This document shows, piece after piece, positions 15,734-27,151 of a stretch of DNA of 33,868 nt. The DNA comes from Gemmatimonadota bacterium (lineage in GTDB: Bacteria; Gemmatimonadota; Gemmatimonadetes; Gemmatimonadales; GWC2-71-9): assembly GCA_003221005.1 (NCBI GenBank), contig QHTZ01000055.1, forward strand, positions 1 through 33,868. The letters run 5' to 3'. Under the pieces are notes generated by a model. The model ran no database searches and was not told the DNA's origin. It saw only the letters and a program-made list of their open reading frames with translations. The stretch's first letter is position 1. Each line of letters begins with the position of its first letter. A program made the translations under genes and the position numbers.

Positions 15734-16303
15734 GTGTTCGCGCGCCCCGAATACCGGTGGGTGGCGACTCGCAACCCACTCGACTGGCTGCTCGGTCTGT
15801 GGCACCGGCTGCTCGCGCTGCTCGAGGGCCTGGGGCGCGCCCACCCTGTTACGTACCGACTGCTCGCGATCGGACTCGCCTTGCTGCTCGTCGGACTCGT
15901 CGTCCACATGGGCTATGTGGTGTGGCGCATCACGCGCCCCACGGTCCGCACCGAGCCGGCGGGCCCTGCCCGTGTAGGTGGCGATCGCCTGGACGCGCGC
16001 GCACACCTGGAGCGCGCCGAGGAGCTGGCGCGCCTGGGCCGTTACCCGGAGGCGCTGGCGCACCGGTTCCTGGCGGTCGTGCTGCAGCTCGACGCGCTTC
16101 GAGCCCTCACGTTCCATCCAGCGAAGACGCCCGCCGAGTACGTGGTCGAAGCGCGCCTCGACACGGCGGGGCGGGCATCGCTCGCCGACCTCGTCGGCCA
16201 GCTGTACCGGCATCTCTTCGGCGCGGTGCCGTGCGACGGGGACGCGTATCGGGCATTCGGGGCGGCGGCCGACGTGGTGCCTCTGCATGTCGCGTCGCAC
16301 TGA
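15734..16303 (+). CDS. DUF4129 domain protein (5' end uncertain)
   Basis: The first available start is GTG 15734, giving 189 residues: VFARPEYRW, a loop, one membrane helix (about 43-65), then the DUF4129 domain (about 88-180) with HLERAEELARLGRYPEALAHRFLAV and TPAEYVVEAR. Codons just upstream in this frame read RRALDEVFARPEYRW back to a stop at 15695-15697, and RALDEVFARP looks like conserved sequence. The real N-terminus, normally a signal peptide, has therefore been lost or frameshifted. DUF4129 domains occur at the C-terminus of transglutaminase-like proteins and in MoxR/DUF58 clusters. The 3' end overlaps the DUF4350 gene by 17 bases. Confidence 0.8.
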   Translation: MFARPEYRWVATRNPLDWLLGLWHRLLALLEGLGRAHPVTYRLLAIGLALLLVGLVVHMGYVVWRITRPTVRTEPAGPARVGGDRLDARAHLERAEELARLGRYPEALAHRFLAVVLQLDALRALTFHPAKTPAEYVVEARLDTAGRASLADLVGQLYRHLFGAVPCDGDAYRAFGAAADVVPLHVASH

Positions 16304-17510
16304 GCTGTGGTGGGTGCTGCTCCTCGCGGGGGCGGTGACGGTCGCGGCCATCGCGGGGCTGAGGCACGGTACGCCGCCGCCCGACGTGGACTACCGGACC
16401 TCGGCATTCCTCAGCGGGCCGCGCGGGAGCAAGGCCCTGTACGAGGTGCTCGCTCGGCTCCGTTTCCCGGTCGAGCGGCGCCGCGCGCCGCTGTTCGAAC
16501 TCACCCGCGCCACGGCGCGGCGCCCCGCGGTGCTGCTCGTGCTGGGTCCCGTCATTCCGCTGCTCCCGGCCGAGCTCGCGCAGGTGGCGCGCTTCGCCCA
16601 CACGGGCGGCTCGGTAGTCGCTGCGGCGGGTGGCGGAGGTATCGCGCGCTGCGCCGGGTGGCGCCCGCGCCATGCCCCGAGCCCGTTTCTCGACGACACC
16701 ATTGGCGTCCTCCCCCCGCGGCCGGGGCTCGGGCTCCCTCCGGTCGCCAACGTGCTCGAGCCGGTGGTCGCCGCCGAGCAGCAATCGAAGGTGGACGAAT
16801 GCCGGCTGCTGGTGCCGTCGGCGCGGGACACGCTGCTTGCGGCGCGGGACGGGAGTCCCGTCGCCTTGCGACTGCGCTACGCGGGGGGTGGCAGCATCGT
16901 CCTCTGGGCGGACCAAGGCTACTTCCGCAACAGCGCCTGGCGTGAGGGGAGCGTGCCGTATTTCGTAGCCCCATTGCTGACGCCGGCGCAGCCCGGCCTG
17001 ATCGTCTGGGACGAATACCACCAGGGCTTCGGCGAGGAGGTGTCGCTGGCTGCGACGACGCTCGATTGGCTGGTCAGCACGCCGGGCGGGTGGGCGCTGC
17101 TCCAGCTCATCGGTGTGCTCCTTGTCGCGCTTGCCGTAGCGGCGGTGCGGTTCGGCCCGGCGCGACCCGCCGTGGAGCGGCGCCGCCGCTCGCCGCTCGA
17201 GCATCTGGAGGCCCTCGCCGCCGGGCTCGAGGGCGCGGCGGGAGTCGACACCGCTCTGCAGCTCACGGTCGCGGGGCTGCGGCGGCGCCTCTCTCGGACA
17301 GGGCGGGAGCGAACGCCGCCTGGCGGCGAGCGGCAGTGGCTCGCCGCGCTCGAGTTGGCCCTGCCGACCCCGCGCGGCCGCGCCGCGGTACGTCGCCTCG
17401 AGCGGTCCGTCAGCGAACCCGGGGGCGTGGAGCGGGTGCTCGCCGCCGCCCAAGCCGTGGAGGACGTGTGGGAGGAGCTTCGCCCGCGCACGACGCGCGA
17501 CGCATCCTAG
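16287..17510 (+). CDS. DUF4350 domain membrane protein
   Basis: A 407-residue protein starting at ATG 16287. A signal-anchor helix (8-25) is followed by an extracytoplasmic DUF4350 domain (about 33-250) with YRTSAFLSGPRGSKALYEVLARL, GSVVAAAGG, and WDEYHQGFG (241-249), and a second membrane helix (about 268-287). The C-terminal 115 residues are helical and probably cytoplasmic. The domain is related to GATase-like Rossmann folds, but no catalytic cysteine pattern is evident. It stands between DUF4129 and MoxR genes, a conserved order in many phyla. Its biochemical role is unknown. It overlaps the previous gene by 17 bases and the next by about 43. Confidence 0.85.
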   Translation: MSRRTELWWVLLLAGAVTVAAIAGLRHGTPPPDVDYRTSAFLSGPRGSKALYEVLARLRFPVERRRAPLFELTRATARRPAVLLVLGPVIPLLPAELAQVARFAHTGGSVVAAAGGGGIARCAGWRPRHAPSPFLDDTIGVLPPRPGLGLPPVANVLEPVVAAEQQSKVDECRLLVPSARDTLLAARDGSPVALRLRYAGGGSIVLWADQGYFRNSAWREGSVPYFVAPLLTPAQPGLIVWDEYHQGFGEEVSLAATTLDWLVSTPGGWALLQLIGVLLVALAVAAVRFGPARPAVERRRRSPLEHLEALAAGLEGAAGVDTALQLTVAGLRRRLSRTGRERTPPGGERQWLAALELALPTPRGRAAVRRLERSVSEPGGVERVLAAAQAVEDVWEELRPRTTRDAS

Positions 17511-18424
17511 ACGCTGTGCGGCTGGTGGTGCTCGGCCAGGACGGCGCGACGCGGGAGGCGCTCATCTGTCTACTCGCCCGCGGCCATGTGCTGCTGGAGG
17601 GCGTGCCCGGCACTGCCAAGACGCTGCTGGTGCGGACTCTGGCGCTCGCCCTTCAGGTCCGCTTTCAACGCATCCAGTTCACCCCTGACCTCATGCCCGC
17701 GGACATCACCGGCATTTCGCTGCTCTCGGGCACGCACGAATTCACTTTCCGGCCCGGCCCGGTGTTTGCCGATCTGGTGCTCGCGGACGAGATCAACCGC
17801 GCCCCCGCGAAGACACAGGCCGCGTTGCTCGAAGCGATGCAGGAGCGCACCGTCACCGTGGACGGCACGGCGCACCCCCTCTCCGACGTCTTTACCGTGT
17901 TCGCGACGCAGAACCCGATCGAGTTCGAGGGCACGTATCCGCTCCCTGAAGCCGAGCTCGACCGCTTCATGATGAAGGTGCTGATTGGATACCCCGCGGC
18001 GGGGTTGGAGCAGGGGATCCTCACGCGCTATGTCGGGGGGTTCGAGGCCGACCGGCCCGCGACGTACGGGGTGACCGCGGTGACCGATGCCGCCGGGCTC
18101 GAGCGGCTGCGCCGGGCCGTGGAGGCGGTGCGGGTGGAGCCCCAGATCACCGCCTACATCACGGCCATCGTGCGGGCGACGCGCGAGGCGGCGTCGCTCA
18201 CGCTGGGGGCAAGCCCGCGCGCCGGCGTGGCGCTGCTCAAGGCCGCACGGGCTGGCGCGCTGCTCGCGGAGCGCGACTACGTGATCCCCGACGACGTAAA
18301 GGGGATGGCGCCAGCGGTGCTGCGGCACCGCGTGAGCGTCGCCCCGGAGCTCGAGCTCGAAGGCGTGACGCCCGATGCCGCCCTCCAGGCCGTGCTCGAC
18401 AAGACCGAGGTGCCGACGACGTGA
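17468..18424 (+). CDS. MoxR-family AAA+ ATPase
   Basis: A chaperone-like AAA+ ATPase of 318 residues if GTG 17468 is used. That start keeps the first helix before VVLGQDGATREAL, and a later GTG (17516) would truncate it. Walker A is GVPGTAKT (45-52), Walker B LVLADEIN (103-110), sensor 1 ATQNP (146-150) and the MoxR-typical EGTYPLPEAELDRFMMK follows. The C-terminal lid ends with the arginine-rich ASPRAGVALLKAARA and YVIPDDVKG. MoxR proteins work with vWA-containing partners to mature or remodel protein complexes, and the coupled DUF58 protein is the likely partner. It overlaps DUF4350 by 43 bases and DUF58 by four (GTGA). Confidence 0.93.
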   Translation: MGGASPAHDARRILDAVRLVVLGQDGATREALICLLARGHVLLEGVPGTAKTLLVRTLALALQVRFQRIQFTPDLMPADITGISLLSGTHEFTFRPGPVFADLVLADEINRAPAKTQAALLEAMQERTVTVDGTAHPLSDVFTVFATQNPIEFEGTYPLPEAELDRFMMKVLIGYPAAGLEQGILTRYVGGFEADRPATYGVTAVTDAAGLERLRRAVEAVRVEPQITAYITAIVRATREAASLTLGASPRAGVALLKAARAGALLAERDYVIPDDVKGMAPAVLRHRVSVAPELELEGVTPDAALQAVLDKTEVPTT

Positions 18425-19740
18425 TCCTGCCGACGCGGCGCGCGCTGGCGCTCGGCGCAGCCCTGTCGGTGGTCGGTGTGCTCGGCTTCCGCGCGCCGCG
18501 CGCGCTCGACGCCATGCTGGTCGCCGACCTGGCGCTCGTGCTGGGCATCTGGCTCGACGCGAGCCGCGCCGTCCGTCCCGGGTCGCCCGATCTCGTGGTG
18601 CAGCGCGAAGTGGCACCCGCCTTCTCGGTCGGCCGGGTGGGCACGGTCGTCTATCGCTGGATCAACCGCTCGCGCCGGCGGCTCCGGCTCCGGGTGCGCG
18701 AGGTCCGGCCGGACATCCTGGGCGGGACGCAACGCCCGCGGGGCGTGTCGGTCGGCCCACGCGGCGAGGCCCGCGAGACGCTTCCCGTGATGCCTGTACG
18801 TCGGGGCCGCGAGCGGGCTGGAGCGATGGTCGCAGACAGCACGGGCCCGCTCGGGCTCGGCCGGCAGCGAGAGTGGATCGCTCTCCCGTGGGACGCGGTG
18901 GCGTACCCGCCGCTCGTGTCGGTGCGGCTCCGCAGCTCGGTGGCACAGCCGCGGCGGCGCCGTGAGCCGGGCGTTACGCCTGTCCGCCGGCTGGGCGAGG
19001 GACGCCTGTTCGAGTCGTTGCGGGAGTGGGTGCCGGGCGACGACATCCGTCATATCGACTGGAAGGCGACAGCCCGGCGCCGCAAGGTGATCGCCCGGCA
19101 GTACGAAGCGGAGCGGCGCCAGCATGTGCTGCTCGTGCTCGACACGGGGCGGCTGCTGACCGCGGAGATCGCGGGCGTCGCCCGTATGGACTACGTGGTG
19201 CAGGCGGCGCTTGAGCTGGCCTACACTGCGACGCAGCACGACGACAACGTGGGCATCATGGCGTTCGCCGACGGCGTGCAGCACTTTGTCCCCCCCGAAC
19301 GCGGCCGGCGCGGTCTGAAGGGCGTGGTGGACGTGCTCGCGGTCGTGGAGCCGCGTCTCGTCGAGCCCGACTATCCCGGCGCGTTCCGCTATCTCGCGGT
19401 GCGCAACCGCAGGCGCGCGCTCACGCTGCTGTTCACCGATGTGATCGCTCGCTTCGCCTCCGAGGCCCTGGTGGCGAGCGTCGGCTCGCTGCGCCCTCGC
19501 CACCTCCCCCTGGCCGTGACCCTCCGCAACCCCGAGCTCGACGCCGTCGCCGCCTTGCGCCCCCGCGAGCCCCGCGACGCGTTCCGGAAGGCTGCAGCCG
19601 AGGAGTTGCTACACGCGCGGGAGGAAGCGTTGACGCACATGCGGCGAGCGGGCGTGCTGGTGCTCGACGTCGCGCCCCAACGCGCGGCCCAGGCGGTGGT
19701 CGCGCAGTACCTCGATTTGAAGCGGCGGGGGCGTCTCTAG
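18421..19740 (+). CDS. DUF58 protein with von Willebrand A-like fold
   Basis: A 439-residue protein starting at GTG 18421 within the MoxR stop. Two helices at about 9-25 and 29-46 anchor it in the membrane. The DUF58 signature REWVPGDDIRHIDWKATAR (201-219) is followed by the vWA-like strand HVLLVLDTGRLL (235-246). The metal-ion site is DTGRL rather than DxSxS, so metal binding may be changed. DUF58 proteins accompany MoxR ATPases almost universally and are thought to act as their adaptor. A long helical tail (from about 350) ends in basic residues. The next gene begins 34 bases later. Confidence 0.92.
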   Translation: MILPTRRALALGAALSVVGVLGFRAPRALDAMLVADLALVLGIWLDASRAVRPGSPDLVVQREVAPAFSVGRVGTVVYRWINRSRRRLRLRVREVRPDILGGTQRPRGVSVGPRGEARETLPVMPVRRGRERAGAMVADSTGPLGLGRQREWIALPWDAVAYPPLVSVRLRSSVAQPRRRREPGVTPVRRLGEGRLFESLREWVPGDDIRHIDWKATARRRKVIARQYEAERRQHVLLVLDTGRLLTAEIAGVARMDYVVQAALELAYTATQHDDNVGIMAFADGVQHFVPPERGRRGLKGVVDVLAVVEPRLVEPDYPGAFRYLAVRNRRRALTLLFTDVIARFASEALVASVGSLRPRHLPLAVTLRNPELDAVAALRPREPRDAFRKAAAEELLHAREEALTHMRRAGVLVLDVAPQRAAQAVVAQYLDLKRRGRL

Positions 19741-19774: not shown

Positions 19775-21415
19775 ATGCGAGCCGGACCCCCGATCACGCT
19801 GGCCGTGGCACTGTGCAGCGGCGCAACCGCCGCGACCTGCGTCTTTCCGACCGAGCGCGACTCGTCGGTGCACGTCAGTTTGACCAAGATCCCCATCCTG
19901 TTCCGCGGCGAGGACACGGTCGCCACGGCACGGGCCTGGCAGATGGTCGGGCCAGGCGATTCCCAGCCGATCCCGAACGTCGTATTTGTCTGGTCCAGCA
20001 GCAACCCGAGCGTCGCGACGGTGGACGGCGCCGGTCACATCGTCGGCGTGACGTCCGGGACCGTGATCATCACCGCGGCGGCGGCGAACTTCGACAAGCA
20101 GGCGCGGGCGGCGGCCGACACGCTGCGGGTGGCCGCCCCGCTAGAGATCGACAGTCTCCGGCCAAAGGGCGTGAAGTACGGCGAGATATTGTCTATCTAC
20201 GGCGTGGGGGTCGACTCGATCTTCTCGGCGTCGCTCGCCGGCGCCCAGCTCATCCGCGTGCCGTTTGCGGACACCCAGTTCGCGGGCGGCACCGAGCGTT
20301 CGAAGTGGTGGGTACCGCCGCCCGCCCATACGGACACGCTGTTCTTCCTCGGGATTTCGGGCCCCAACGGCATCTTTGGCTTCTTTCACGGCGACACCAC
20401 CCGGGTCACCGAGGTGGATCTCTTTGAGCCGAACGACATCATACCTACTACGATCAGCCTGAACGCGCCGCCGCCGTTCGCCGTGTTTCCGACGCTCGAG
20501 TTCACGAATCCGGCCCTCGCGTTCGAGCCCATCAAGCGTCCCGCGCTTGCGGGGTCGGACTGGTACCGTTTTACGCACGCGGGGGCGCGCGACGTGACGA
20601 TCATTCTCAGTGCGCCACAGATCGCTCGCACCTTCTCTACCTTCCTCACCGACTCGCTCATCTGGGACCCGGCGAAACAGACCTACACCATCGGTCCTGA
20701 CTCCTGGACATTCGGTCCCAAGTCGCACGTCTGTCACGGAGTCCCCTGGGCCCCCGCCGCCTCCCCCTCCACCTCCATGCCGGATGAGGCACCCGCGGAC
20801 TCCACGATCGTGGCGTTCAAGAACCTGAGCCTGCCCCACGACTTCCTGGATGCCGTCGCGGTCTATACCGCACAGGGACGCTACGGGCTGACGGTGATCA
20901 CCGGGTACCAGAGCGAGCTACCGGCGGACAGTCACGAGGACGACAACTCGTGTAACGCCGCGGACTCTCGTCAGGTGTTCGCTGTCCCGTTTCGCGACAC
21001 GCTGGCGATCGAGAACCCGCACGACGTGGACTGGATCCGTTTCACTGTCGCCAGCCTGGGCAACTATCAGTTCCGGCTCCACGCGTTCCCGGGCGTCCAC
21101 CCCGACTCGCTGAAGGACCTCGATCTCTACGTGGTCAAGGTGCCCAATCCCGGGGACCCGTCTCTCTCGATCATCATGGCGGACACCGCTGCGGGCTCGG
21201 ACGTAAACCGCACGGTCGTAGGGCTTGCTGCGGGGAGCTACTACGCGGTGGTGGTCGACTTCGCGGGGACGGCCACGATGTACGAGATATGCGCCGCGCC
21301 GCTGCTCGGTTCCTGCAGCACAAGCTTCCCCGCGCCGCCCCTGTCCACCGGCGCTAGCACCGTGCGGCAGCGGTCCGCTCAGGCACCCCTCCTCCTGCCG
21401 AGCCCGCGCCCATGA
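19775..21415 (+). CDS. Secreted protein with bacterial Ig-like and two PPC-like domains
   Basis: A 546-residue exported protein. The N-terminus (MRAGPPITLAVALCSG) is a signal peptide; the cysteines there do not make a proper lipobox. Residues about 45-120 form a Big_2-type Ig-like domain (WSSSNPSVATVDGAGHIVGV). Residues 123-165 resemble an IPT/TIG strand pair. Two pre-peptidase C-terminal (PPC)-like domains follow: DLFEPND...SDWYRFTHAG (215-280) and DSHEDDNSCNAAD...DVDWIRFTVASLG...DLDLYVVK (385-508). These modules bind or cap surface polymers or proteases; no enzyme domain is visible. The stop overlaps the kinase start by four bases, so it probably supplies the outside part of the kinase system. 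Confidence 0.85.
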   Translation: MRAGPPITLAVALCSGATAATCVFPTERDSSVHVSLTKIPILFRGEDTVATARAWQMVGPGDSQPIPNVVFVWSSSNPSVATVDGAGHIVGVTSGTVIITAAAANFDKQARAAADTLRVAAPLEIDSLRPKGVKYGEILSIYGVGVDSIFSASLAGAQLIRVPFADTQFAGGTERSKWWVPPPAHTDTLFFLGISGPNGIFGFFHGDTTRVTEVDLFEPNDIIPTTISLNAPPPFAVFPTLEFTNPALAFEPIKRPALAGSDWYRFTHAGARDVTIILSAPQIARTFSTFLTDSLIWDPAKQTYTIGPDSWTFGPKSHVCHGVPWAPAASPSTSMPDEAPADSTIVAFKNLSLPHDFLDAVAVYTAQGRYGLTVITGYQSELPADSHEDDNSCNAADSRQVFAVPFRDTLAIENPHDVDWIRFTVASLGNYQFRLHAFPGVHPDSLKDLDLYVVKVPNPGDPSLSIIMADTAAGSDVNRTVVGLAAGSYYAVVVDFAGTATMYEICAAPLLGSCSTSFPAPPLSTGASTVRQRSAQAPLLLPSPRP

Positions 21416-22935
21416 CCAACGGCACGGTCGAATGCATCAGCTGCCATACGCCGGTGCCCGAGAACAGCCGGTACTGCTCGGTGTGCGGCGCCGACCAGTC
21501 CGGCGGTGGTGGACCGACCAGCACCACGAGCGCCGCGGCGCTGCTCCAGCGGCTCCAGCGCCTCGTGGAGGGCAAGTACAAGATCGAGCGGATGCTCGGC
21601 AAGGGCGGGATGGGCGCGGTGTTCCTCGCGCACGATCTCACGCTCGAGCGCGAGGTCGCGATCAAGCTGCTGCCGCCCGACATCGCCCAGGACGATCAGG
21701 TCGTGCGCCGGTTCCAGCAGGAGGCCAAGACCGCCGCCAAGCTCGACCACCCGAACATCATCCCGATCTACCGCGTCGAGAGCGAAGGCGGCCTCAACTA
21801 CTTCGTGATGAAGTACATCTCGGGGACGTCGCTCGAGGACGTGTTGGAGCAGAAGGAGCCCCTCGCCGCCGACTACATCCAGCGGGTGCTGTGGGAGGCT
21901 GCCTGCGCGCTCGGGCACGCCCACCAGCGCGGCGTCGTGCACCGCGACGTCAAGCCGGCGAACATCATGTTCGACCATGACGGGCGCGTGATGCTCACCG
22001 ACTTCGGAATCTCCAAAGCGCTCCAGGCGGCCACCGGCTTCACAGCCACGGGGATGATCATCGGTACGCCGCACTACATGGCGCCCGAGCAGGCGAAGGG
22101 GGCGACGGTGGATGGACGCGCCGACGAATACTCGCTGGGGGTGGTCGGGTACCGCATGGTCACGGGCGCGCTGCCGTTCAGCGGCGACTCGGTGCACACC
22201 ATTCTCTACAAGCACATTTTCGAGCAGGCGCCGCAGGCCAAGTCGCTCCGGGCCGACATCCCCGACCACATCTCCGCGGCGATCGGGCGCGCGATGTCGA
22301 AGGACCCGGGCGAGCGGTTCGCGACGATGGAGAGCTTCGCGACCGCCGTGTGGCCGGAGCAGCCGGTGGTGGCAGCGGGCCCGGCGCGCCCGCCTACCCG
22401 GCCCGCGGCGCGGGCTCGCGCCGGCGCCACTCCGGAGGCGCCGACCGAGGTGACAGCGGCGCCCACGACGCCGCTCCCTGTGGCGCGGGGTGCGGCGCCG
22501 CGCAAGTCGAAGACCGGTCTCCTCGTGAGCGCCGCGCTGGTCGCGGTCGCGGCCGTAGGAGGATACCTGGTGTTCGGGCGGGGCACGGCAGCGCCGCCCG
22601 AGCCGGCGTCGCAGCCCGCCGCCACGCGGGTGGACACCGTTCGCGTCTCGGACACCGTGCGGGTCCCACAACGTCCCTTCCGGATCGATCGACGCCAGCC
22701 GGTGACCGTTCCTTCCGCCGGCCAACAGGGCTACGTCACGGTGAATGCCGAGCCGTACGGCGAGGTGTACGTCGACGGCGTGGATGTCGGCCCGACACCC
22801 GTCGTGCGCTACGCCGTCCCTGCGGGCGCGCACACGATCAAGGTCGTGCGCGAGGGGTACCGGTCGGTGACCGAGCGCGTCCAGGTGGACGCCGGGAACA
22901 CCGTGCCGAAACGCTACACGCTCTTGCCCGAGTGA
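21412..22935 (+). CDS. Transmembrane Ser/Thr protein kinase with zinc ribbon and PEGA domain
   Basis: A 507-residue eukaryotic-like kinase. An N-terminal zinc ribbon has C8, C11, C22 and C25. The kinase domain (about 56-315) has the glycine loop LGKGGMGAV, K85 in VAIK, E104, catalytic HRDVKPANI (177-185), DFG (197-199) and GTPHYMAPEQ (218-227), so it should be active. A Pro/Ala-rich linker leads to one membrane helix (368-387), then a PEGA domain (about 439-505: YVTVNAEPYGEVYVDGVDVG). PEGA domains typically lie outside the membrane and bind surface structures. The ATG overlaps the previous stop and the stop overlaps the next start (TGATG). Substrates are unknown; the coupled neighbours are the first candidates. 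Confidence 0.95.
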   Translation: MTNGTVECISCHTPVPENSRYCSVCGADQSGGGGPTSTTSAAALLQRLQRLVEGKYKIERMLGKGGMGAVFLAHDLTLEREVAIKLLPPDIAQDDQVVRRFQQEAKTAAKLDHPNIIPIYRVESEGGLNYFVMKYISGTSLEDVLEQKEPLAADYIQRVLWEAACALGHAHQRGVVHRDVKPANIMFDHDGRVMLTDFGISKALQAATGFTATGMIIGTPHYMAPEQAKGATVDGRADEYSLGVVGYRMVTGALPFSGDSVHTILYKHIFEQAPQAKSLRADIPDHISAAIGRAMSKDPGERFATMESFATAVWPEQPVVAAGPARPPTRPAARARAGATPEAPTEVTAAPTTPLPVARGAAPRKSKTGLLVSAALVAVAAVGGYLVFGRGTAAPPEPASQPAATRVDTVRVSDTVRVPQRPFRIDRRQPVTVPSAGQQGYVTVNAEPYGEVYVDGVDVGPTPVVRYAVPAGAHTIKVVREGYRSVTERVQVDAGNTVPKRYTLLPE

Positions 22936-23984
22936 TGAGGGCCATGCGCTCGAGCGGCTTGCTCCTGATGCTGGCGCTGGGCATCCCGGCGGCGGTGCGT
23001 GCTCAGGCGGCGCCCGCGCCGCAGAACGCGACGCTGCGCGCCGCGATCCAGGCGTACGAGAACCTCGACTTCACGCGCGCGATCACGCTCGCGCGCCGGG
23101 CGCTGAGCGAACACATGACCGGGCCCGATCAAGCGCGCGCCTACGAGCTGCTCGGCTTCAGCTACAGCGCCACCGACTCGCAGGTCAAGGCGGTGGACGC
23201 CTTCAAGCAGGCCATCCTGCTCGATCCCGATCGCCAGCTCGACCCCAACAAGGTGTCCCCCAAGATCACGAGCCTCTTCTACTCGGCGCTGGGACAGGTG
23301 CTCGTGGTGCGGCAGCTCCAGGCGGACAGCGCGCGGTTCATCGGTGGGCAGGGCGCGGTGCCGCTCCGGTTCACGGTGACGAGTCCGGCGCGGGTCCGCG
23401 TGCGCGCGGTGAGCGGCTCGACTTCGCTGCTCGTCGACTCCGCCGTCCTCACGGGAGCGGTCAACGTGCGCTGGCTCGCCCGACTCCCGAACGGCGATCC
23501 GGTCCCGTCCGGGACGTGGCTCATCGTGGTGGAAGCGACCTCGGGGCAGAACACCTTCTCCGCGTCGCGGTCGCTGCGGGTGACCTACAGTCCGGTGGAC
23601 ACGCTGCCGCACCTGACCAGCTTGCCGGGTTACAAGGAGCTGCCGGAGACCGAGGTGCCGCCGCAGAGCTGGCGCCCCTTGGGACTAGCGTTCCTGTTCA
23701 CGGGCAGCGCCGCCGCGGGCGCGCTCGCCCTCAACAACGACGGTCTGGGCTCCGCACCGGGGCGCGAGCTGATCGGCGTAAGCGTCGTGACGCTGGCCGC
23801 GGGCTTCGTGATGACGCTCCGCAAGCCGGCACCGCGGCCGGCAGAGGCAAACATCCTCTACAACCGGCTGCTGCGCGAGCAGCTGTCGCAGCGCAACGCC
23901 GACATCGCGAAGGAGAACGTAAAGCGGCGCCAGCAGGTCCAGCTCACGGTCGTGCCCCTGCCCAAGACCGGAAGCGCGCGGTGA
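22935..23984 (+). CDS. Membrane protein with TPR-like helices and Ig-like domain
   Basis: A 349-residue protein with a signal peptide (1-23, ending VRAQ). Helices at about 32-100 resemble tetratricopeptide repeats (AYENLDFTRAITLARRAL; ARAYELLGFSYSATDS; AVDAFKQAILLDPD). A beta-rich region (about 141-220) contains LPNGDPVPSGTWLIVVEA, similar to FlgD-type Ig-like capping domains. Two membrane helices (about 248-266 and 279-294) and a charged coiled C-terminus (305-335) follow. The first-gene-to-next overlap (TGATG with the kinase, GTGA with the barrel gene) places it in the kinase module, possibly linking inner and outer membranes. I do not recognise a named family. Confidence 0.8.
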   Translation: MRAMRSSGLLLMLALGIPAAVRAQAAPAPQNATLRAAIQAYENLDFTRAITLARRALSEHMTGPDQARAYELLGFSYSATDSQVKAVDAFKQAILLDPDRQLDPNKVSPKITSLFYSALGQVLVVRQLQADSARFIGGQGAVPLRFTVTSPARVRVRAVSGSTSLLVDSAVLTGAVNVRWLARLPNGDPVPSGTWLIVVEATSGQNTFSASRSLRVTYSPVDTLPHLTSLPGYKELPETEVPPQSWRPLGLAFLFTGSAAAGALALNNDGLGSAPGRELIGVSVVTLAAGFVMTLRKPAPRPAEANILYNRLLREQLSQRNADIAKENVKRRQQVQLTVVPLPKTGSAR

Positions 23985-24625
23985 GGGCCCTGGCGCTGGG
24001 CGGCTTCTTGCTGGGGCTCTGCACCAGGTCCGCGGCGGCGCAGCACGCGACCCTCGGGCCGGCGGTCGCCGTGGCCGAGTATCGCGAAGTCGCGTCCAGC
24101 CTGCGCTACAGCGGCGTCGGCCCCGGGGCGTCGGCCCGGGTGACGTGGCATCGCTTCACGCTCGATGCCGCGATCGTGTCGATCCAGATGAAGCCCGCGT
24201 CCGGGAGCGCCGCGACGCAGAGTTTCCGCGCTACCGAGATCGACGGGTGGCTGCGGTGGGATGCGCTGAACTACATGAGCTTCGAGGTGGGACTCACGCA
24301 GCGCTCGCCAGACTCGGATTTCGCCGCGCAGTCGCTCGGTGCGGTGCGCGTGGGTGCCCGCACGCGCTACCTCCTCGGACCCGGTGCCACCATCTGGCTG
24401 CGGGGCGACTACCTCGCGGGCGCGCAGTTCTCAGGCGGCGGCACCGCACCGCTGGCCCTCGAGTTGGGCTTGGGCCTCGATCTCGAGTTGTCGCGCCACG
24501 TGCGCGCCCAGGTGGATTACTCCTTCCAGCGCCTGGACCGCAAGACCAACCCCGCCGGCGGCGCGAAAGCGAGCGTGCCGATCGAACAGTCGCTCGCGCG
24601 CCTCGGGCTGACGGTAGGACTGTAG
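23981..24625 (+). CDS. Predicted small outer-membrane beta-barrel protein
   Basis: A 214-residue protein starting at GTG 23981, inside the preceding stop. A signal peptide ends near SAAAQ (residue 21). The rest is a series of amphipathic strands with conserved turn glycines, such as ATLGPAVAVAEYREV, SARVTWHRFTLDAAIV, YMSFEVGLTQRSPDSD, GAVRVGARTRYLL, IWLRGDYLAGAQF and HVRAQVDYSFQRLDR. The pattern fits an eight- to ten-stranded barrel. The last strand ends LARLGLTVGL, without the terminal Phe common in BAM substrates. It is the last gene of the kinase module. A GCACCG/CGGTGC hairpin lies at 24651-24672, and the remaining gap to 24873 (248 bases from the stop) has only a possible promoter. Confidence 0.75.
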   Translation: MRALALGGFLLGLCTRSAAAQHATLGPAVAVAEYREVASSLRYSGVGPGASARVTWHRFTLDAAIVSIQMKPASGSAATQSFRATEIDGWLRWDALNYMSFEVGLTQRSPDSDFAAQSLGAVRVGARTRYLLGPGATIWLRGDYLAGAQFSGGGTAPLALELGLGLDLELSRHVRAQVDYSFQRLDRKTNPAGGAKASVPIEQSLARLGLTVGL

Positions 24626-24873: not shown

Positions 24874-25761
24874 ATGAAATCATCGCGTGCGGGCAACCGG
24901 GCCGCCCGACTGCGGCCGCCGGCGGCTCTGATCGCCGGCGGGCGCGAAGGGGCCGCCTGGGACGTCGAAGGCATCCTGGCGCGACGTGGCTACCTGGTGT
25001 TTCGGGCCCACGCGCTCAGTGGCGCTGTTGCCCTGGCGCGGCGCGTGCGTCCCGACGTGATTATCCTCGACGCCGCCCCGTCCGACCCGGGCGGCCTCGC
25101 GTTGAGCCGAGAGCTTCGCGGCGACCGGGAGGTCGGGGTGAGCACTCCCGTGCTGGTCGCCACGCGCGAGCAACCGACGCCGCGGCAGCATCGTGACGCG
25201 CTGCGCGCCGGGACGTGGGGCTTCCTCACGTCGCCGCTCGGGGCGGCGGAGGAGGAGCTCGTAGCCACGCTCGACACGTTCGTGCTCGCTAAACGCGAGG
25301 CGGACCGCGCTGGGCTCGAGAGCCTGCGGGACGCGGGGAGCGGCCTGTACGACGTGCGCGGCCTGGCGCACCGCGCGCGGGAGCTCACGCTGCAGGCGTT
25401 CCACCACCACGCGGGACTCGCGTGCGTGGCCTTGGGGCCGGCGACCGACGCGGAGGAACGGTTCGCGCGGGCGCTGGCTTCCGGTGGCCGGCAGTCGGAC
25501 GCCATCGGCCGTACCGGGGCCGCGGAGTTCGCCGTCGTCGCGCCCGGCACCGATCGCGGGGGCGCGGTGAAGCTCGCGGAGCGATTCGCGCGGCTGGCGC
25601 CCGGCGTGGCGCTGCGCGCGGGCTACGTCGCCGTCGGGAACGTGCGCTACACGCCGCTCGAGCCGAAGAACATGCTGGCGCACGCACGCAGGGCGCTACG
25701 GCTTGCCCAGGCGGAGCACGCCGGGGCATGGATCCGCGCATTCGACGAGCCACGGAGGTGA
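24874..25761 (+). CDS. Degenerate receiver-GGDEF protein
   Basis: A 295-residue protein with two decayed signalling domains. Residues about 17-140 follow a response-regulator fold and keep a candidate phosphorylation site D66 (DVIILDAAPS), but the N-terminal acidic pair is replaced by AGGREG and the conserved lysine by S120 (FLTSPLG). Residues about 150-290 follow a GGDEF fold (SGLYDVRGLAHRARELTLQ; ending MLAHARRALRLAQ), but the signature is GAAEF (215-219), so cyclase activity is unlikely. It could be a nucleotide sensor or a regulatory partner. It ends four bases before the intact diguanylate cyclase, so the pair is probably co-transcribed. Confidence 0.8.
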   Translation: MKSSRAGNRAARLRPPAALIAGGREGAAWDVEGILARRGYLVFRAHALSGAVALARRVRPDVIILDAAPSDPGGLALSRELRGDREVGVSTPVLVATREQPTPRQHRDALRAGTWGFLTSPLGAAEEELVATLDTFVLAKREADRAGLESLRDAGSGLYDVRGLAHRARELTLQAFHHHAGLACVALGPATDAEERFARALASGGRQSDAIGRTGAAEFAVVAPGTDRGGAVKLAERFARLAPGVALRAGYVAVGNVRYTPLEPKNMLAHARRALRLAQAEHAGAWIRAFDEPRR

Positions 25762-25765
25762 TGCG

Positions 25766-27151
25766 GTGAACCGGACGCGGCTGGTGCTGCGCCATCTGGC
25801 GCTGCTCCTGACTCTCACCATCGTTTATCTCGTCGCCGGCAAGCTTGGCCTGCGGCTCGCCTTCGTGCACGCCAGCGCAACCGGCGTATGGGCGCCGACG
25901 GGGATCGCCCTTGCAGCGTTCCTGACCCTCGGCTACGAGGTGTGGCCGGCCATCCTGTGCGGCGCGTTTCTCGTGAACCTGACGACCGCGGGGACGGTCG
26001 CGACCTCAATCGGCATCAGCATCGGGAACACGCTCGAGGGGGTGGTCGGCGCCTACCTCGTGACCCGCTTCGCCGCCGGCAGCCGGGCCTTCGTGCGCGC
26101 GCGGGACGCGCTCCGTTTTGCCATCCTCGCTGGCATGCTCGCCACGACCGTCAGTCCCACGATCGGCATCACCACCCTCGCCGTGGCGGGGTTCGCCCGC
26201 TGGGCGGACTACGGATCCATCTGGCTGACGTGGTGGCTCGGAGACGCGGTCGGCGCCCTCATCGTCGCGCCGGTCCTGCTGCTGTGGACGGCGGACCCCC
26301 GGCTCGGCTGGAGCAGACGCCAGCTGCTCGAGGCTGGCGCCTTGGTCGCGACGCTCGTCGCCGCCGGCGTGATCGTGTTCGGCGGCGCCCTCCTCCCGGG
26401 GATCCGGAACTATCCGCTCGAGTTCCTGTGCATGCCGTTCCTGCTGTGGGCGGCGTTCCGCTTCGGCCCGCGCGAGGTGGCGACGGCGATCGTCGTGTTG
26501 TCGGTGATCGCCATCTGGGGCACGCTGCACGGGTTCGGTCCGTTCGTGCGGGACTCGGAGAACGAATCCCTCCTGCTGTTGCAGGCCTTCATGGGCGTCA
26601 CGTCGGTGATGTCCACGGCGCTGGCCGTGGTCGTCTCGGAGCGGAAGCACGTCGAGGAGCAACTGCGGCGCCTGGCCGTGAGCGATCCCCTCACCGGGCT
26701 CGCCAATTACCGGCAGCTGATCGAGGTGCTCGACGCCGAGATCATGCGGGCGCAGCGCAACGGCCGGTCGTTCGCGATCCTGTTTTTCGATCTCGACGGC
26801 CTCAAGAAGATCAACGACCGCCACGGCCACCTCGTCGGGAGCCGGGCGCTGTGTCGCCTGGCCGAGGCGATGCGGGCTTCGTCCCGCGCCATCGACACGG
26901 GGGCCCGCTACGGCGGCGACGAGTTTGCCTTGATCCTTCCCGAGACAACGGAAGCGGCAGCCTGGCAGGTCGCGACCCGCATCACGGAACGACTGGCGGC
27001 GGACCGCGAGCATCCAAAGCTGTCGGTGAGTGCGGGTGTCGCGGAGTATCCGCGCGACGGGGATACGGTCGAGGTGCTGCTCGGCGTCGCGGACCGGCTG
27101 TTGTACGAGGCAAAGCCCCACGTCCCGAGCAGGTCCGCGCGCCGCGCCTAG
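25766..27151 (+). CDS. MASE1-GGDEF diguanylate cyclase
   Basis: Makes cyclic di-GMP from two GTP. It has 461 residues starting at GTG 25766, chosen because GGAGG sits 7 bases upstream and an ATG at 25761 is out of frame. Residues 1-290 are a MASE1 sensor with about eight membrane helices (opening LVAGKLGLRLAFVHASATGVW; WAPTGIALA). The GGDEF domain (302-452) has DPLTGLANYR, FDLDGLKKINDRHGH and the intact RYGGDEFALIL (381-391). An inhibitory I-site RAID (374-377) sits exactly five residues before GGDEF, so product inhibition is expected. There is no EAL domain. The ligand sensed by MASE1 is not known. Confidence 0.95.
   Translation: MNRTRLVLRHLALLLTLTIVYLVAGKLGLRLAFVHASATGVWAPTGIALAAFLTLGYEVWPAILCGAFLVNLTTAGTVATSIGISIGNTLEGVVGAYLVTRFAAGSRAFVRARDALRFAILAGMLATTVSPTIGITTLAVAGFARWADYGSIWLTWWLGDAVGALIVAPVLLLWTADPRLGWSRRQLLEAGALVATLVAAGVIVFGGALLPGIRNYPLEFLCMPFLLWAAFRFGPREVATAIVVLSVIAIWGTLHGFGPFVRDSENESLLLLQAFMGVTSVMSTALAVVVSERKHVEEQLRRLAVSDPLTGLANYRQLIEVLDAEIMRAQRNGRSFAILFFDLDGLKKINDRHGHLVGSRALCRLAEAMRASSRAIDTGARYGGDEFALILPETTEAAAWQVATRITERLAADREHPKLSVSAGVAEYPRDGDTVEVLLGVADRLLYEAKPHVPSRSARRA

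Follow-up and report, generated by a model that had tools for sequence, protein, structure and literature searches.

A conserved four-gene unit joining a PEGA-domain Ser/Thr kinase to exported and outer-membrane proteins in Gemmatimonadota

We analysed a stretch of 33,868 nucleotides (the window) from contig 38 (QHTZ01000055.1) of a 2.8-Mb metagenome-assembled genome (MAG) of a soil bacterium whose relatives are Gemmatimonadota. Four genes between positions 19775 and 24625, here called G1, KIN, G3 and G4, encode an exported protein with an immunoglobulin-like (Ig) domain, a membrane-bound Ser/Thr kinase carrying a PEGA domain, an exported linker protein and a predicted outer-membrane β-barrel. 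Judged by its conservation across genomes, G1-KIN-G3-G4 is a real unit, and its best explanation, to which we give a probability of about 0.55, is a lineage-specific trans-envelope receptor-kinase module. The genes follow one another in the same direction on the plus strand, and a codon-usage gene caller chose the same four with high scores. G1 and KIN overlap by four bases (ATGA), as do G3 and G4 (GTGA). At the KIN/G3 junction (TGATG), the overlap is one base if G3 starts at ATG 22935, whereas an 8-base gap results from ATG 22944, the start that aligns with the homologues and is favoured by the relatives. The four-gene arrangement reported in the initial annotation is, therefore, real in its gene calls, junctions, domains and conservation, with the one-base overlap hanging on the choice of the G3 start. 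Gene overlaps are by themselves weak evidence; the conservation of the set exceeds chance.

We scanned a collection containing one genome per species (84,980 prokaryote species) with a G3 profile of the group termed clade A, since an alignment of all G3 proteins proved too diverse for such a scan; the scan covered sequences matching two peptide patterns. It retrieved 32 loci, all in Gemmatimonadota MAGs. All four genes were complete, in the order G1-KIN-G3-G4, in 23 loci of other MAGs. Conservation of the gene order in the phylum, which the initial annotation had proposed as a check, was borne out in clade-A loci wherever the contig was long enough, apart from two genomes. In one of them (G013, locus L076), KIN-G3-G4 stays together, but the G1 homologue lies on the opposite strand, at a distance of about 3 kb. 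The other, a one-contig genome of family f5 (G104), has the order G3-G4-G1-G1-KIN on one strand, indicating that the linkage survives rearrangement. The module is also found with differing neighbours, for example in L119-L123 and L125-L127, which lack the DUF4350-MoxR-DUF58 operon located upstream of it in the window. The four genes, thus, stay together independently of their surroundings, and KIN orthologues in relatives were not found beside unrelated neighbours.

G1 is a protein of 546 amino acids whose N-terminal export signal ends at Cys22, a residue invariant in 25 homologues. The Thr at position -1 is atypical for a lipobox, and G1 is probably lipid-anchored. The motifs EPND and DWYRF are found twice in its alignment. 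The PPC profile (PF04151) matches 11 out of 25 G1 homologues at E<=0.1 (best 2.5e-6), with no Pfam match in the window's own copy. The earlier description of an exported Ig/PPC protein consequently holds for the export signal and the Big_2 domain, while the PPC assignment is tentative and comes from the homologues and the motifs.

KIN (507 amino acids) scores 169.5 bits against PF00069 (cut-off 31.7), which identifies a Hanks-type Ser/Thr kinase. Its catalytic residues are all present (VAIK Lys, HRD Asp and DFG Asp), which makes it a kinase of the active type. The PEGA domain scores 50.3 bits against PF08308 (curated cut-off 20.8) and is separated from the kinase domain by a single transmembrane helix, in agreement with the cytoplasmic catalytic domain and outward PEGA domain described at first. 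The zinc-ribbon motif at the N terminus, kept in most homologues, had been overlooked.

G3 comprises 346 or 349 amino acids, depending on its start, and contains a TPR region of five helices followed by an Ig-like β-sandwich; FlgD_ig matches 31 out of 34 G3 homologues. Its signal peptide, TPR and FlgD-type Ig parts stand as first described. The two membrane helices, predicted at residues 247-266 and 276-295, are probable rather than certain because of their modest hydropathy (1.5 and 1.3, compared to 2.2 for the KIN helix). The hairpin that they form could lie in the inner membrane or be associated with G4 and the outer membrane. Searches of Pfam, NCBIfam and PADLOC assigned G3 to no family beyond TPR and FlgD_ig, and Foldseek returned local Ig and TPR matches only. 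A TssQ assignment was rejected (28 bits against a cut-off of 65), the similarity being that of a generic TPR. G4 (214 amino acids) is predicted to form a closed outer-membrane barrel behind a signal peptide, as the initial annotation had it, with OpcA, Pla and OmpT among the best solved Foldseek matches of its model (E 1e-8 to 1e-5). It has no Pfam match when searched alone and no NCBIfam or PADLOC family beyond OMP_b-brl, which matches 2 out of 30 G4 homologues. From these domains and the predicted barrel, the parts span the cytoplasm, inner membrane, periplasm and outer membrane, as previously noted.

The association extends to distant paralogues. G3 proteins with approximately 21-29% identity are encoded directly after a kinase gene and mostly before a gene for an exported protein of about 210 amino acids, so that KIN-G3-G4 is kept, mostly with 4-base overlaps. 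A phylum-wide profile search found near-full-length G3 (matching 200 or more model positions, with genome G102 excluded) in 36 out of 249 sampled genomes. These belong to five families of the class: 22 to the window's family, nine to f2, two each to f3 and f5, and one to f9. Eight candidates per genome were scored, and copy numbers are, therefore, lower bounds. One locus (L191, in genome G255) has a G3 in this search, yet none was called by the gene caller. The G4 proteins of the three module clades are homologous in profile comparisons (hhalign probability 95 and 97%). The gene before KIN differs, though it mostly encodes a secreted protein of the Ig type: clade A has PPC/Big_2 proteins of about 550 amino acids, clade C has Ig-type proteins of about 125 amino acids, and the remaining paralogues have long Ig-repeat proteins or other genes. 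The window's genome holds at least three modules, namely the present one, a clade-A copy on contig 68, whose G3-G4 part is cut by the contig end, and a clade-C module on contig 3; a further G3 fragment is located on contig 34.

Where G3 comes immediately after the kinase, 42 out of 43 kinases had a PEGA domain, compared to 2 out of 30 other kinases sampled; one further unlinked entry in this tally is the rearranged G104 module. Within the window's genome, 2 of the 26 kinase domains adjoin G3 (in the window and on contig 3). The only other PEGA kinase there, among those not beside G3, is a 614-amino-acid protein encoded on the minus strand of contig 21 (L161). In a kinase tree whose bootstrap had not fully settled, the module label requires 3 changes, against 23.7 in shuffles, and G3-linked kinases cluster together, the exceptions being two unlinked PEGA kinases and L190. 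This pattern is consistent with the kinase-G3 pairing being one old association. A possible further module type was observed in L199 (4875-12999), which encodes a PEGA kinase, sister to that of the L195 module, followed by an exported TPR protein, in which a protease-like and a PEGA-like part seem to be present, and by a 1616-amino-acid protein.

In clade B, eight modules group together with support (100/98); the HRD aspartate is missing from seven of them and the αC glutamate from all eight. These pseudokinase loci keep PEGA and a downstream G3, and a G4-like gene in most cases. Identity within the group is 41% for the kinase, 56% for PEGA and 41% for G3, compared to 62%, 43% and 37% in the active sister group, so that constraint has shifted from the kinase to PEGA. 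Other loci have no kinase at all. L192 (3-2262) and L194 (4777-7408) combine, in this order, an Ig-repeat secreted gene, a relative of G3 and a Big_2-like exported protein of 118-126 amino acids, with overlaps of 1-4 bases, and in L094 G3 and G4 come immediately after an Ig-repeat frame. In L195, two PEGA domains are inserted after the TPR of a G3 homologue, which places PEGA and TPR in one compartment. Taken together, the pseudokinases and kinase-less G3 loci indicate that the envelope part is the constant core, which the kinase would read.

We propose that G1 and G4 would form the outer part of the module and that G3 would bridge the periplasm by means of TPR and Ig. KIN could dock on this TPR/Ig part through PEGA and would turn the state of the envelope complex into cytoplasmic Ser/Thr phosphorylation. 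The proposal builds on the computed gene linkage, conservation, domains and predicted barrel fold, and on the survival of PEGA and G3 in modules with a degenerate kinase; from these we infer the physical contacts, the membrane of the G3 hairpin, the direction of the signal, a ligand and substrates. With DUF58 as background, segment divergence correlated at 0.75 between PEGA and TPR, 0.70 between PEGA and Ig, and 0.85 between the G3 hairpin and G4, similar to the values for segments of a single protein (0.81 for TPR-Ig and 0.79 for the two PPC-like regions). These values, which carry no significance estimate, fit the docking model and are suggestive only.

Several observations weigh against a receptor-kinase module. 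The correlated segments are also neighbours on the DNA, and linkage could cause the correlations. The gene in first position is not one protein family across all paralogues, and the G3 hairpin is weakly hydrophobic and followed by net positive charge, leaving its topology ambiguous. Presence is patchy, with close G3 relatives in 14 out of 36 other genomes of the window's family, and the module is, therefore, dispensable. Lastly, some modules do without phosphorylation, as the pseudokinases and kinase-less loci show. The earlier suggestion that the set passes an envelope signal to the kinase is, thus, upheld as regards an envelope-spanning unit, and signalling is plausible, complicated by the pseudokinase sublineage and the kinase-less G3 loci.

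The main rival is a surface-display or export assembly, in which G3 and G4 would transport the Ig-type protein to the outer membrane or fix it there, with the kinase serving as a regulator or, as a pseudokinase, as a PEGA-bearing inner-membrane anchor. The persistence of an Ig-type gene and G3 without a kinase (L192 and L194, and L094 with G4) or with a dead one speaks for such an assembly, and the combination of a periplasmic TPR, an outer-membrane barrel and a surface lipoprotein recalls Slam/DUF560 export of surface lipoproteins (PMC5449769, PMC8406197). However, the TPR and the barrel of the module are on separate, unrelated proteins, a kinase is present, and none of 30 G4 and 34 G3 members matches DUF560. 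Moreover, G4 is modelled as a small 10-strand barrel resembling OpcA and OmpT, which are not wide export pores. In most modules, the kinase is intact, of the active type and, at 62-68% identity, the best-conserved part. We regard this assembly as unlikely, though a serious competitor.

We hold it still less probable that the genes are a co-regulated operon of envelope proteins that share no complex. Adjacency could explain the correlated divergence, but the different order in family f5, the several genomic contexts, the occurrence of PEGA kinases almost exclusively with G3 and the persistence in paralogous lineages all speak for a functional unit. An anti-phage defence unit was rejected as very improbable, given that the PADLOC PD-T4-6 models that match the kinase (up to E=9e-95) are restricted to its kinase domain and would recognize numerous Hanks-type kinases, while no PADLOC defence model matches G1, G3 or G4.

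Among known systems, the closest kinases are PASTA-type receptor Ser/Thr kinases (PknB/Stk1, NF033483), which, like KIN, have a cytoplasmic Hanks-type kinase, one transmembrane helix and an extracytoplasmic domain. KIN is not a member: NF033483 reaches 326 bits, below its 450-bit cut-off and over the kinase domain only, Pfam detects no PASTA repeats, and KIN instead has PEGA, an N-terminal zinc ribbon and dedicated G1, G3 and G4 partners. The closest working analogy, and an analogy only, is the RcsF-OmpA/OMP-IgaA-RcsCDB envelope stress system (PMC4942254, PMC7553776, PMC9907809), which in outline arranges an outer-membrane lipoprotein with a barrel, an inner-membrane link and a cytoplasmic kinase. 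The proteins of the module are, however, unrelated, its kinase is a Ser/Thr kinase, and no Pfam or NCBIfam match to RcsF, IgaA or a histidine phosphorelay was found in the four genes. The module belongs to none of the systems compared, among which Slam/DUF560 export comes nearest to the rival assembly. Literature on PEGA kinases with TPR and on Gemmatimonadota kinases yielded nothing relevant, and no described system of this composition emerged from the literature searched, in line with the initial annotation, many subscription papers being outside the search. The combination, its multiplication and the pseudokinase branch are new; the kinase is of an ordinary kind, as are its domains.

The operon upstream of G1 (Table 1) is beside the module in the nearest relatives and absent in more distant ones, and it is, therefore, context rather than part of the module; the two may be co-transcribed. 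Directly after the module, at 24874-27151, the window has a receiver/GGDEF-like gene and then a MASE1-GGDEF gene, a pair not seen beside the module in the relatives examined.

Table 1. Positions of the module genes, their domains and related features (window coordinates unless a locus is named)
Feature	Position	Strand	Basis
DUF4350-MoxR-DUF58 operon, preceded by an unassigned open reading frame (15734-16303)	15734..19740	+	34 bases before G1
G1, exported, probably lipid-anchored, Big_2 and two PPC-like regions	19775..21415	+	Signal, Pfam, alignment
Big_2 domain of G1, residues 71-108	19985..20098	+	Pfam E=2.7e-6
First PPC-like region of G1, residues 214-384, EPND...DWYRF	20414..20926	+	Alignment
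Second PPC-like region of G1, residues 385-505, EDDN...DVDWIRF...DLDLYV	20927..21289	+	Alignment
KIN, zinc ribbon, Ser/Thr kinase, transmembrane helix, PEGA	21412..22935	+	Pfam, residue check, hydropathy
Zinc-ribbon-like CxxC...CxxC, cytoplasmic N terminus of KIN, residues 8-28	21433..21495	+	PF13240 E=7.5e-5, just under cut-off
Kinase domain of KIN	21577..22332	+	PF00069 E=1.2e-49
Transmembrane helix of KIN, residues 369-388	22516..22575	+	Mean hydropathy 2.2
PEGA domain of KIN, expected outside the inner membrane	22732..22923	+	PF08308 E=2.3e-13
G3, exported linker (alternative start 22935)	22944..23984	+	Signal peptide, Pfam, predicted structure
TPR of G3	23022-23300	+	TPR_2 E=4.6e-4
FlgD-type Ig domain of G3	23307-23591	+	Weak FlgD_ig match
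Hydrophobic hairpin of G3	23673-23819	+	Predicted
C-terminal helix of G3, long	23844-23942	+	Predicted
G4, predicted 10-strand outer-membrane β-barrel (strands 24044-24619), signal peptide	23981..24625	+	AlphaFold pLDDT 92.1
PEGA pseudokinases	L086:550-2004, L089:6123-7634, L090:1578-3023, L098:4093-5757, L183, L196; partly L081, L198		

More broadly, and tentatively, these modules may represent an undescribed class of trans-envelope signalling devices, confined to Gemmatimonadota in the searches made, which sampled this phylum in depth. In such a device, a PEGA receptor Ser/Thr kinase would read, by way of a TPR-Ig bridge, an outer-membrane barrel together with a variable surface protein of the Ig type; the class would have multiplied into paralogues with interchangeable sensors and one pseudokinase lineage. 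The bacterial receptor Ser/Thr kinases studied in depth are mostly from single-membrane Gram-positives. Little is known about the means by which a kinase of this kind might sense the outer membrane in a two-membrane cell, and the module names candidate parts for this task. Dissection can draw on dozens of variants that occur in nature, among them some with a dead kinase and some with none, and the module offers a functional handle on Gemmatimonadota, an abundant and little-studied soil phylum with few cultured members.

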